NCBI GenBank assembly: GCA_963921795.1
Contig: OY997655.1
Coordinates: 5,681,203-5,745,202, forward strand
From: Nannobrachium achirus
Lineage: Eukaryota > Chordata > Actinopteri > Myctophiformes > Myctophidae
DNA: 64,000 nt
Direction: 5' to 3'
Position numbers and translations under genes: made by a program. The notes under the pieces were generated by a model. The model made no database searches, was not told the DNA's origin, and saw nothing but the letters and a program-made list of their open reading frames with translations. Shown here one piece after another: positions 36,001 to 51,000 of this stretch; the stretch's first letter is position 1; each line of letters begins with the position of its first letter.

Positions 36001-39000
36001 ATAAAGAAACTGCTGGCTTATTGTGTCTAAAAAGACATATTTAGCCACTTGTACGCATGCCCCCATGCGTACGCATGCCCCACATTTTAGCACGGTAAAA
36101 AGCGATAAAACAATAGAACGAAGCAAATGAAAAGATTTTAACACTCACTTTTTCTTTTCTCTTATTACAATCTAAAATATGAACCCTTGTTGTAAAAAAC
36201 TAAAGTTGTCCTTTAATGGTGACATGACCTTTTCATATCATCCCATCCCTAGTATACTGTATGTACAGTATATTATGGATCATATTGGCTCTCATGATGT
36301 ACAGTATACTGCTCTCTAACTCTAGTATACTGTATGTATATTATGGATCATATTGACTCTCATGATGTACAGTATACTGCTCTCTAACTCTAGTATACTG
36401 TATGTATATTATGGATCATATTGACTCTCATGATGTACAGTATACTGCTCTCTAACTCTCCGCTGATATTGTTCTTCAGTCGTGGAACAATGAGCTGATC
36501 AGCTGGGAGCCGTCTGAGTTCTGTGGAATCGACCGGATCACCCTTCCTAAAGACGCGCTCTGGAAGCCAGATCTCTTTATATATGAAGCGTGAGTGCTGA
36601 TTGCTGAAGCATTATGGGCGCACGCACGTACACACTCACACACACACACATGTGCACGTGCACGCACGGACACATGTGTTTCAGAGGTCATCGCCATGCT
36701 ATCTTGCAGTGGACATTTTTGTGAAAAAGCCATTTTCGACACAGACATACAAAACGAGCGGACAATAGTATTATAAAAAACATTTTTACATAAAGAGACA
36801 GCCCTGAATGACCATAACAGGTCTCTGTGACTCTCAGAGTTACAGTAAATAAAATGGTAAATGGTGCATTTATTATGGTGCCTTTATCCAAGGCACTTTA
36901 CATAGGTTATGCATTACATTCACCCATTCACACACACTTTCATACACCGATGGCAGAGGAGACAAAGCAAGGCACCAACCTGCTCACCGGGAGCAACTAG
37001 AGGTTCAGAGTCTTGCTCAAGGACTCCTCGACACTAACTTGGGGGGAACCCGGGAACTGGGAACCCTTCGGGAACCCTCCCTGTTCTAAGACAGCAACTC
37101 TACCCCTGAGCCACTGAGGGTCCTTGCAAATCAAACGTTTGAGAACCACTAGTACCTAGTAGTGAACTCATAATGTGCCATACATAGAGTCGCAGTTACT
37201 ATGAAAAGCTCCACCGGCTGTGTCAGTCAGTCAGTCAGTCTGTCTGTCTGTCAGTCTGTCCGTCACGTCACACCTTTGCCCTACTCTTATCTCCGCCACA
37301 GTTGGCCCTATCAACGCCAAATTTTTCACACACACTCCTTGGATGGCAAATCAAAAACTCCATCCACTCATTTCTCACATGGCCTTCTTCTCGCGCCACC
37401 ATCAGGCCGAAAACATATTTTCGGACACTGCTCCTACAGACCTAAAATCACACAAAGCGGTACACACTCTAAAGTCATGTCATCAACATGGATCTGTCCC
37501 ATCTCACATATTCCCTCCTGATTGGCTACCATTGCCTTCTAAAGTTTGTGTATGCGACCTAACGGTCGTATTATCAAGTCAATACTGGAGATGTGGCGTA
37601 ACGGCATGAATTTCTACACAGAGAGGGCAATTCTTAACATAAGATGCTGCATTCAAGTTCAGGAGAGTTCAGGTATGGCATGGAAAGAGGGGGCATCTGC
37701 ATTTTTTTCACCATAGTAAAAACTGCATTCATGGTCTGTAGAGGGCATTTTTTTATATAAAAGGGCAGGGGCTCAAGAGTCAAGCCCCCTTTGATGTATA
37801 TGTGTGCACGTGCCTGTTGATGACCCCTGGTGTGTGTGTGTGGTCTGTCTGTGTCTGTGTCTGTGTGTGCGTGTGTGTGTGTGTGTGTGTGTGTGTGTGT
37901 GTGTGTGTGTGTGTGTGTGTGTGTGTGTGTGTGTGTGTGTGTATGCGTGCGTGCGTGCGTGCGTGCTCTCAGGACAGAGAAGGAGTCGTCCTGTCAGACT
38001 CCCTACCTGTATGTTATGAGCGACGGCAGGGTCTTCACCGAAGAGGCTGCCAAGGTGACCTGCACCTGCAAGCTGGACGTCTACAAGTTCCCCTTCGACA
38101 CGCAGAGCTGCAACCTCAGCTTCACCTCCGCCGTTCACCACGGTAAGCAGGGACGTGCTGGGCCCCTGATTCAGCCTGGGAAAAAGAGTTGGAGAGGCCC
38201 TCATTTTTTCTTTATATATATTTTGTCGTTGTCGGCTGGAAACCTTATATGTCCAAAAACTTTTGTTTTGTATTGTCATTTTAAAAATGATTTAAACTAG
38301 TGAAAACAGCCGATCTACAAGCACACAACGCCTCGCGGTGCGAGGCGTTGTGTGCTTGTAGATCTGCTGTTTTCACTACTTTTGTGCAACGGCCTTGTAT
38401 GGTGAAGCAGGGCTTTGCAGAGGACAGTGACGATTTACTTTGTTGGCCGCACAGCCCCCAAAATGGAACGAAGGCCGACATTTTTTTATTACTTTTTTCC
38501 TAATGGCCGGCCTGGACGGGCCGGGAATGAACCGGCCGTTGGGGAGTTGTCCCGCTTTTCCCAATAGCCAGCACGTCCCTGGCGGTAAGAACCAACCTCA
38601 GCTTCACCTCCGCTGTTTACCACGGTAAGAAAACAACCTCACCTAGGGCTGTCACGATATGACATTTTACATGACGATTAACGATTTAATTGTGTATTTG
38701 TCGTTGACAATTACATTTCTGTTTGGCTTTGAAGTTGCACATGGCAGATATGGCACATAACTTAAATAGACAAAGAAATTACTAAAAAATAACATTGATA
38801 GTGGAAATAGCCGATCTACAAGCTCACAACGCGTCGCGATGCGACGCGTTGTGAGCTTGTAGATCGGCTATTTCCACTATTTCTGAAAATGTTTGTCAAT
38901 GTATGAACATTTTACAACATTCACGATTATGACAAAATATTTGCGATTATGTCAAATAATTACGATTAGACGATTATGTAATAATTGTGACAGCCCTAAC

Positions 39001-48000: not shown

Positions 48001-51000
48001 ACACATCCTCCATGTCTGGGTCTCCACTCATAGGTAGAACACACTGTAAACACATGCTCCATGTCTGGGTCTCCACTCATAGGTAGAACACACTGTAAAC
48101 ACATGCTCCATGTCTGGGTCTCCACTCATAGGTAGAACACACTGTAAACACATGCTCCATGTCTGGGTCTCCACTCATAGGTAAAACACACTGTAAACAC
48201 ATGCTCCATGTCTGGGTCTCCACTCATAGGTAAAACACTGTAAACACACCCTCCATGTCTGGGTCTCCACTCATAGGTAAACACACATTTTAGGCCCATG
48301 CCAGATGAATCTGGATATTTCATATATCCCAGATTTTCAGATATCCAAATAGAAAAATATCTAGGTCCACACAATCAAGATATCTAGGTCTAAAATAATC
48401 TGAGTCCCCAGGCCTCCACAAGGGGGACTTCAGAGATATCCATGTTCCATGCCTACACGGATCCAGTGAATCTGATATGTATCAATGTCTTCACTTATTT
48501 ATTCGGTTTCAAAAGTATCCAGTTTCGCGGCCAAAATATCCAGCTTTGTGTGGTTGCAAGCCCCAATCGCACAAAGAAATGTCTAGCTTCAGAAAAATCC
48601 AGCTCTGTGTAGCCGGCACCTTAAATGACATAATGCCTGGCTCTCCACTCATTGGCAAAACACTAGTATAGACACACCATCACTCAAATATTTATTGTAG
48701 CAGAGCAGCCCTAATAGAGAAATGTGTTGTCATCCTGGGACCCAAACTTAGATAAATATAAATTAATTATCCACTTAAAGGACAACTTTGTTTTTTTTTT
48801 TACAACAAGGGTTTATATATTTATAAGATTGTAATTAGAGAAAAGAAAAAGTGAATGTTAAAATGTTTTCATTTACTTCGTTCCATCGTTTTAGCATGTT
48901 TAGCGAGTTAAAAAGGTGGGGGCATGCGTACGCATGGGGGCATGTGTACAAGTGGCTAAATATGTATTTTTAGACACAATTAGTCTGCAATTTCTTTATT
49001 GCTATTTACAGTAACCCCAGAAGTCACATCTGCCCATGAAAGATTGTGGTGCATCTTGGGAATGGGCTTATTCTGTGTATTTAGCAACTTGCCCCCAGCC
49101 ACTGAAATCAAAATAATTAAAATCTCTAAAACAATAGAAAGGAGTAAATTAAAACATTTTAACTCTCATCTTTTCTTTAATTACTATCTAAAATATGAAC
49201 CCTTGTTGTAAAAAAACAAAAAAAACAAAGTTGTCCTTTAAGCCCTATTTCAAAACTAGTGAAAATAGCTGATCTACAAGCTCACACTGCACATTGTGAG
49301 ATGGGGCCCCAGCAAATAATCAAAATGCTGTGAAAATAGCCGCAATATGACACTGTGTATATTTGCTATTTTCACACATTTTGAAAGGTTCCTATTTGTT
49401 GTTGTTTAACCTTTTTATTATTCAAAAGTTTAATAGGCTTTTATCCATCACTGCTCATAAGAAGCGCTAAAGCAAACAAACACGTAGTTCTCCCTTCAGC
49501 TTTTGGTTCCCAAGTCATAAAACACTGTAGCTGTCTTCATGTCTGCCATATGCAGTTATTCTGAAAATGTTGAATCATAAATCTTCTCGACTCTTATGGT
49601 TGTCCCGGGCACAAACTATTTTTAGATTTATAGCTCTGTGGCCTAAAGGTTGTGTTCATTTTTCAGGGTGTAAATGATTGAAAGCCACTGACATAAACGA
49701 GGCCCCAGAACAGGCCTAAAGTGATCCAAATGTGTGTGCGCTCCACAGCCACCTACTGCAGTGGTTCTCAACCCTTTCAGGCTGCGACCCCCAAAATAAT
49801 CATATTCGAACTGGGGACCCTGACGAGCACTAAGAGTTGAGGAATTACATTTTGTATAACACGGTTCTATTGTGGAAATAGCAGATCTACATGCTCAATG
49901 TAACGCGAGGCGTTATGAGGCGTTGTGAGCATGTAGATCTGCTATTTTCACAATTTCTGCCTCTAATATTTGACAACTGTTTGCCAGTTCTCAATTTGTC
50001 ATTTTAGAGGTACTAAAAAGTTCTTAAATTGTCACTTTAGAAATGTGCAGATACCCTCTACACACTTACACCTTATGTTGGTTTGTTTACTGTTGAGAGA
50101 GAAAACAACGTTGCACAACATTGCACATTAAGTTAATCCCCCCCCCCCCCCCCCTCAAATAATTTGAGGACCCCGCTGGGGGTCCCGACCCACAGGTTGA
50201 GAACCACTGACCTACTGCATGGTGATGTGTGTCCTCTCCACAGCCACCTACTGCATCGTGATCTTTGGTCTGATGTTGCTGAGCCTGTTTGAGACGGTGG
50301 TGGTGACCTATCTGATGGAGAAGGACAGCGTCCCCCAGCAGCACACAGAGACAGACAGAGACCAGTCAGACCATAGCCTGAAGATGGACTGTCAGGACAA
50401 ACAACAAGACCACGTCAATGTCCATCATAGCTGCAACGGAGGTAGGAGAGGATATCTGAAAGAAATTAGAATAATTTAATATATAACAAAATTACAAAAA
50501 AAAAATAATAACATCATTCAGGATTGATACCAAGATTGCATTTGTGCTGCACTCACACACTCACACGCGCACACACACACACACACACACACACACACAC
50601 ACACACACACACACACACACACACACACACACACACACACACACACACACGTCATTGAGAAAGTTATATTATGTTTCTTATTAACCATTTGATTTTAGGT
50701 GATAGCAGACTGAGCTCTGCTTGTCAAAATGTTATGAAATGTCTCTTAAACTATACTTTACCACATGACATGACTGACTGAAAACTACATATTTATTTAG
50801 TTTTTTCTATTTTTTAATGCTAGTAGCAGTAGAGCTGCAAAGACATGTGGCCCTCTTTCAGATGTTGTCATGTAGATCGGTACACAGTATCTCTGTAGCC
50901 TTTAAACGAAACGGGTATTTCTTACATTGATGCTCCTACATATTATCATGCAAGCACCAGAAAGTTACTTTACATCCCTCATATACTGTGTGCACAGTGC

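Follow-up and report, generated by a model that had tools for sequence, protein, structure and literature searches.

A 64,000-nucleotide stretch of the Nannobrachium achirus genome (here called the window; positions 5681203-5745202 of contig C18, in an assembly of 1.66 Gb and 564 contigs) carries on its plus strand a gene for a 5-HT3-like pentameric channel in which four consecutive exons, 5 through 8, each run directly into a minisatellite. At each of these exons the repeat unit of the array consists of that exon's own 3' end together with the start of the intron, including the 5' splice site (donor). We put at roughly 0.7 the probability that these arrays belong to the class of exon-border minisatellites known in amphioxus as mirages, and that they were duplicated locally and are tolerated by the gene.

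The encoded protein has both the ligand-binding and the transmembrane domain of a 5-HT3-type channel (Pfam PF02931, E 1.7e-39, and PF02932, E 8e-15), and the closest solved structures are those of 5-HT3A (E 3.3e-61). Exons 2-11 were mapped by tblastn with a mouse 5-HT3A query, in combination with splice sites and phase; no exon 1 was found. Once spliced, the reading frame is open from exon 2 through the stop codon, which lies in exon 11 (62427-62600) with the last transmembrane helix.

The original prediction had described arrays after exons 5, 6, 7 and 8 with units of 41, 21, 52 and 47 bp, each made of an exon tail and an intron start, and both Tandem Repeats Finder (TRF) and direct counting bear this out. 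In exon 5 (37973-38142) the exon copy of the 41-bp unit is formed by the last 31-32 bp; the corresponding segments are the last 12-13 bp of exon 6 (41771-41940; 21-bp unit), the last 20-21 bp of exon 7 (44912-45037; 52-bp unit) and the last 27-28 bp of exon 8 (47105-47186; 47-bp unit). The four exons thus contribute up to 32, 13, 21 and 28 bp to their units. The exon-5 array, the exon copy plus 26 more, extends from 38112 to 40095 (TRF, 38998-40095). The exon-6 array (41928-43528) consists of two blocks, 41928-42009 and 43063-43528, on either side of an insertion of about 1 kb. Within intron 7 (45038-47104, 2067 bp), which also holds inserted elements, the exon copy is followed by 12 further copies, all with GT (TRF, 46175-46587). 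The exon-8 array (47159-48284; TRF, 47160-48284) contains the exon copy plus 23 and is uninterrupted. The arrays are four in number, as described, but not all continuous: those of exons 5, 6 and 7 are split by elements whose boundaries were read by eye.

Copies were counted with a 10-11-base core that contains GT, allowing at most one mismatch and including the exon copy, a count that leans towards GT. It gives 27, 25, 13 and 24 copies at exons 5, 6, 7 and 8, of which 25, 24, 13 and 24 carry GT (86/89 in all). When an 18-base criterion with at most four mismatches is used instead, GT is present in 24/26, 10/10 and 23/24 of the copies in the introns that follow exons 5, 7 and 8. Both criteria yield 85 extra donor copies downstream of the exons (26, 25, 10 and 24 by the 18-base criterion; 26, 24, 12 and 23 by the core), in line with the 80-90 decoy donors, nearly all keeping GT, that had been estimated. 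No copy of the donor context follows the donors of exons 2, 3, 4, 9 and 10; of these, exon 2 lies at 26760-26909 (start approximate; tblastn, splice site read), exon 9 at 50244-50441 (tblastn) and exon 10, deduced from its phase and its splice sites, at 51322-51401.

Two further tandem arrays lie close to exon borders of this gene. A 40-bp array takes up most of intron 10, with 4 copies at 51446-51605 and then about 235 at 52027-61496 (TRF); its first block begins about 45 bp past the exon-10 donor, which lies outside the block. Upstream of exon 4, a 68-bp array at 36268-36459 (2.8 copies that match at 99%) stops about 20 bp short of the acceptor and covers the place where the branch point is expected.

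The claim that the four units are unrelated is upheld, as none of the six pairs shows significant similarity (the closest pair, exons 5 and 8, is equalled by 19 of 300 shuffles). Each array can also be compared with the exon it adjoins and with the same exon of the sister gene, the closest paralogue. The exon-5 array consensus agrees with its own exon at 27/31 positions and with the sister's at 16/31, and the consensus sequences of the exon-6 and exon-8 arrays match their own exons at 12/12 and 27/27. Because the consensus matches its own exon, the arrays at exons 5, 6 and 8 arose locally. For exon 7 the two comparisons come out about equal (own exon 19/24, sister 20/24).

One alternative is that these are ordinary minisatellites that overlap exon ends by chance, the gene being an outlier in a genome full of repeats. 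Tandem repeats are indeed frequent in the window (70 TRF rows). A placement test was made with seven minisatellites in the span of the gene, hand-picked from the TRF rows (period at least 20, at least 2.5 copies, overlaps merged), with array starts moved upstream by hand so as to take in the exon copy. Four of the seven start no more than 35 bp upstream of a donor, a number that was never reached in 200,000 random placements (binomial P about 2e-7). Within the gene, chance placement of the four arrays is thus very unlikely.

Could the copies be errors of assembly, with repeats that were stuttered rather than real? Tandem repeats are hard to assemble, and with a single assembly the exact copy numbers of the arrays are uncertain. 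However, the copies differ from one another (12 distinct variants among 25 at exon 5 and 12 among 23 at exon 8) and are interrupted by elements, and the same anatomy occurs at five loci on other contigs. An artefact of this sort is barely credible.

A different proposal, made in the original prediction, is that selection favours redundancy of the donor, so that extra 5' splice sites make splicing robust or tune it. Consistent with this, GT is present in 86/89 copies at a strict core match, and the GT columns vary less than the others in the arrays of exon 7 (0 and 0 versus a mean of 2.2) and exon 8 (0 and 1 versus 1.4); in addition, if copies 2-4 at exon 6 served as donors, 7, 14 or 21 amino acids would be gained in frame. 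However, the core used to find the copies itself holds GT, and GT is unprotected in exon 5 (3 and 0 versus a mean of 0.77) and exon 6 (0 and 1 versus 0.48). Of the 85 decoys, 82 break the frame or run into a stop, and the three that keep the frame all belong to exon 6. Arrays are found at acceptors too. Nor is there a link between arrays and donor strength (P 0.41 and 0.97, with donors picked automatically), and a role of the arrays in making up for weak donors found no support. Selection for redundancy is improbable; tolerance would be the simplest account of the decoy donors.

The elements that interrupt the arrays raise the question of whether transposition started them. Three inverted-repeat elements adjoin donor sequence and show short target duplications by eye; these elements, at 38148-38583, 42010-43062 and 45750-46174, lie at or beside donor sequence inside the arrays, and perhaps the same spot attracts them. 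The exon-5 array is interrupted by two such elements (about 38148-38583 and about 38646-38997, by eye). A query containing about 250 bp of the first inverted-repeat element matched the genome at 40 places or more (40 of 3504 candidates were scored). An additional, palindromic element was recognized by eye at 46722-47033, near the 3' end of intron 7.

If transposable elements had seeded the arrays, an insertion would have duplicated a few donor bases and thereby started the repeat. The presence of inverted-repeat elements inside the arrays of exons 5, 6 and 7, three of them beside donor sequence, speaks for this account. Nevertheless, no such element occurs inside the exon-8 array or inside two myosin arrays described below (L087 and L101), and for exon 8 seeding by a transposon is close to refuted. 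Furthermore, the elements interrupt existing units and hence came after the arrays, and the exon-derived part of the unit, at 13-37 bp, exceeds a target duplication. The start of intron 7 is without a match elsewhere: with its first 82 bp as query, 9/9 of the genome matches listed fall inside intron 7. An intron made by an introner or transposon would be expected to have its founding sequence dispersed in the genome. The related notion of a dispersed element as the source of the exon-7 unit is unsupported, since among these matches the intron start is found only in intron 7. We regard transposon seeding as very improbable.

Intron 7 itself differs from the other introns of the gene. In all 24 of the paralogous loci read, the stretch that corresponds to exons 7 and 8 is a single uninterrupted reading frame, and the closest paralogue, which is 83% identical over exons 7-8, reads CTGGGCTTCAAGGTGACCGTGCTG straight across the junction. 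Among the 5-HT3-like genome matches listed, only the window's own match ends at the exon 7-8 junction. In addition, the intron is flanked by a 10-bp direct repeat, GCTTCAAGGT, whose left copy (45030-45039) spans the donor and whose right copy (47097-47106) spans the acceptor. This repeat, which contains AGGT, amounts to 8+2 bp, and the other eight introns show only 0-2 bp of such identity. Because the paralogous loci are unbroken in 24 cases out of 24 and intron 7 alone among the nine introns is flanked by a 10-bp repeat, intron 7 is, on this comparison of sequences, newly gained in the window gene. Introns gained at AGGT sites through duplication or break repair bear this kind of flanking repeat, according to the cited passages (PMC3443670, PMC4202315).

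Two points qualify this reading. The 24 paralogous loci were the best-scoring ones, a choice that favours unbroken stretches. Also, the start of intron 7 is unlike the start of exon 8, and the intron is thus probably not a plain copy of exon sequence, even though the units of the exon-7 array include about 20 bp of exon 7. Since intron 7 does not begin like exon 8, repair of a staggered break with insertion fits better than plain tandem duplication. These results also modify the statement that four events of the same kind took place at the same landmark: the anatomy is shared at exons 5-8, but at exon 7 the landmark is absent from related genes and the intron is new.

Arrays with the same anatomy are found in other genes. 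In the sister paralogue an array with a 41-bp unit (TRF, 13.7 copies) is anchored at the acceptor of exon 9; no donor array was seen in those of its exons that were read. A second sample consisted of 60 exons hand-picked, mostly without internal stops, from 147 matches to the myosin head domain. Five of these exons have arrays that span the donor (L077, L087, L098, L101 and L109), and one has an array at the acceptor. The latter is L101 (C8:466864-467661), in which a 125-bp array lies across the acceptor and a 46-bp array starts from the donor; by eye, the donor unit is the exon tail with an internal deletion. Thus, the process that creates border arrays extends beyond the window gene. The suggestion of a mechanism shared among exon-intron borders accordingly holds in the sense of something recurrent, given the 5/60 myosin donors and the sister-gene acceptor.

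Eight other arrays are present in the myosin loci (period at least 15), just one of them with a period of at least 40, and they cover 0.9% (period at least 25) or 1.5% (all eight) of the flanking positions. Against this background, 5/60 spanned donors correspond to P values of 2e-4 or 0.002. When the myosin exons are pooled with the ion-channel and receptor exons described below (5/104), the values are 0.003 or 0.021. As to left ends, 5/14 arrays with a period of at least 15 begin no more than 40 bp before an exon stops (P 0.001; 3/12 under strict counting, P 0.035), as do 5/7 arrays with a period of at least 40 (P 2e-5; strict 3/5, P 0.002).

A number of observations weigh against a genome-wide preference for donors. 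L087 and L098 represent a single exon, sampled in two paralogues; L077 is its counterpart in a further, homologous myosin, and about 17 of the 60 myosin exons are that one exon. The copies at L101 do not pass a strict match to the donor. If L101 is dropped and the two paralogous exons count as one, the myosin result falls to 3/59 (P 0.016 or 0.059) and the pooled result to 3/102 (P 0.065 or 0.20). The background is itself thin, and both its wider version and the left-end test on 14 arrays weaken the genome-wide excess. Donor arrays are present at 0/20 ion-channel exons (20 of 157 matches; about 5 of the 20 without a convincing donor in the stretch) and at 0/24 exons of receptor paralogues, about 8 of which have a doubtful donor assignment, yet no array overlaps the exon. 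Finally, three donor words were matched less often across the genome than their reversed words (358 versus 1241, 320 versus 943 and 555 versus 1910). These matches overlap in large arrays. Distinct loci, counted by hand in the span common to both lists, number 27 versus 9 for CAGGTAAG and its reverse, at least 7 of those 27 belonging to what appear to be two repeat families, and 2 versus 8 for AAGGTAAG and its reverse. The word searches thus conflict with one another, and no conclusion here is built on them. All 30 of the word-search loci listed are on contig C1, and none of the six that were read resembles an exon border by eye. Two donor-word arrays on that contig, C1:3383206-3383507 (CAGGTAAG, 49 bp) and C1:3384911-3385434 (AAGGTAAG, 43 bp), lie 1.4 kb apart on the same strand and are possibly another gene with consecutive donor arrays.

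The comparison with chance positions that had been called for therefore gives a divided answer: within the gene the excess is clear (0/200,000), while in the sampled other genes it is moderate and not significant under the strictest counting. The absence of arrays from the ion-channel and receptor-paralogue donors, the word counts without a consistent excess and the loss of significance all favour coincidental overlap. Yet the window's four arrays were never matched by random placement, and the choice of window cannot account for the myosin sample, where five of 60 donors are spanned as against 0.9-1.5% of flanking positions. Coincidence is for these reasons rather unlikely, while a genome-wide excess of arrays at donors is likely rather than proven, is moderate relative to the intron background and may differ between gene groups.

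Other 5-HT3-like genes lie nearby. Exon 2 of a neighbouring paralogue is at 1144-1251 of the window on the minus strand, with no array seen at its donor and with its other exons in locus L041. Counting the exons of the window gene, 98 matches to 5-HT3-like genes were obtained, and paralogue clusters are located on contig C18 at 5.4-5.7 Mb and 12.2-12.3 Mb and on contig C4 at 62-64 Mb. Rfam gave no match in the window at gathering scores.

The anatomy seen here has a precedent, although the original prediction knew of no described system of this type. Amphioxus mirages, as described in the cited passages, are tandem duplications that resemble minisatellites and lie across an exon-intron boundary, be it the 5' or the 3' one of the exon; many of their copies carry splice signals, and it has been suggested that new introns come from them (PMC3087553, PMC3902484). 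They are the same kind of structure. The mirage genes named there are Adh3, the globins BflGb6 and BflGb9, TnC and PGBD5. Like these, the window gene has tandem duplications across the boundary, with GT in 86/89 copies. Mirages occur at both 5' and 3' boundaries; here the window gene has them at donors and not at acceptors, and sister exon 9 and myosin L101 have them at acceptors. The differences are that the present genome is a vertebrate one, that four consecutive exons of one gene are involved with up to 27 copies, more than in the amphioxus globin cases quoted, that donors prevail (5 versus 1 acceptor in the 60 myosin exons), and that one array sits in an intron shown by paralogues to be new. 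Regular splicing is reported in these passages for some amphioxus mirages; for the window gene, what is known is the intact spliced frame from exon 2. A further trait of mirages is a copy number that is unstable between haplotypes or cells; the window gene is represented here by a single assembly.

Other systems share single features. In the literature consulted for descriptions in fish or elsewhere, border-anchored minisatellites are those of amphioxus. In human segmental duplications, variable tandem repeats at exon-intron boundaries are mentioned in the part of the source cited (PMC2812944). Daphnia neointrons, attributed to intron gain through double-strand breaks, have direct repeats of 4-12 bp at both ends and internal repeats in 55/90 cases, according to the passages cited (PMC4202315). 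The 10-bp repeat of intron 7 is alike, but those passages describe direct repeats and no tandem arrays, whereas here the repeats make up a minisatellite, with about 20 bp of exon in each unit. When introns are gained by tandem duplication, one copy of AGGT supplies the donor and the other the acceptor (the cited portions of a review, PMC3443670); potato RdRp (PMC4974935) is named as a case of this type. The duplicated AGGT of intron 7 is similar; the difference is that intron 7 starts unlike exon 8. Intronic minisatellites are also present in sea bream GH and MSTN-2 (PMC3045353) and in an earthworm metallothionein gene (PMC12783039), and in the passages cited no unit of exon end plus splice donor is described for them. 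What is new here is the extension of the mirage anatomy to a vertebrate, to four exons in a row and, at one array, to a new intron.

Under the interpretation as locally duplicated, tolerated mirages, an exon border would first be duplicated by a staggered break or by a slip in replication or repair, and slippage or unequal exchange would then multiply the duplicated border. The gene would survive if the exon-proximal donor is used and the further copies are removed with the intron. At exon 7, a break-repair insertion into a continuous exon could create both splice sites at once; the order of events would be insertion that makes the intron, then expansion of the donor segment, and then insertion of the elements. 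Tandem duplication and expansion are possibly favoured at donors, and the cause of the bias towards exon tails, if that bias holds genome-wide, may be, as a guess, a break linked to transcription or splicing. A broader idea is put forward only tentatively: mutation coupled to transcription or splicing might keep founding minisatellites at 5' splice sites, several percent of which would be affected, and might also insert new spliceosomal introns into continuous exons, in which case border minisatellites and young introns would be two outcomes of one kind of break.

Intron gain has been reported as very rare in vertebrates (in the passages cited, PMC2746811 and PMC3151243), and its mechanism is debated, as stated in the cited part of a review (PMC3443670). 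The window gene may show a live example of introns changing and arising. It also poses a question for splicing, namely how one donor is chosen among about 25 that are nearly identical. A genome with recurring border minisatellites, one of them in an intron missing from related genes, would be a testbed for linking break repair, tandem duplication and the birth of introns.

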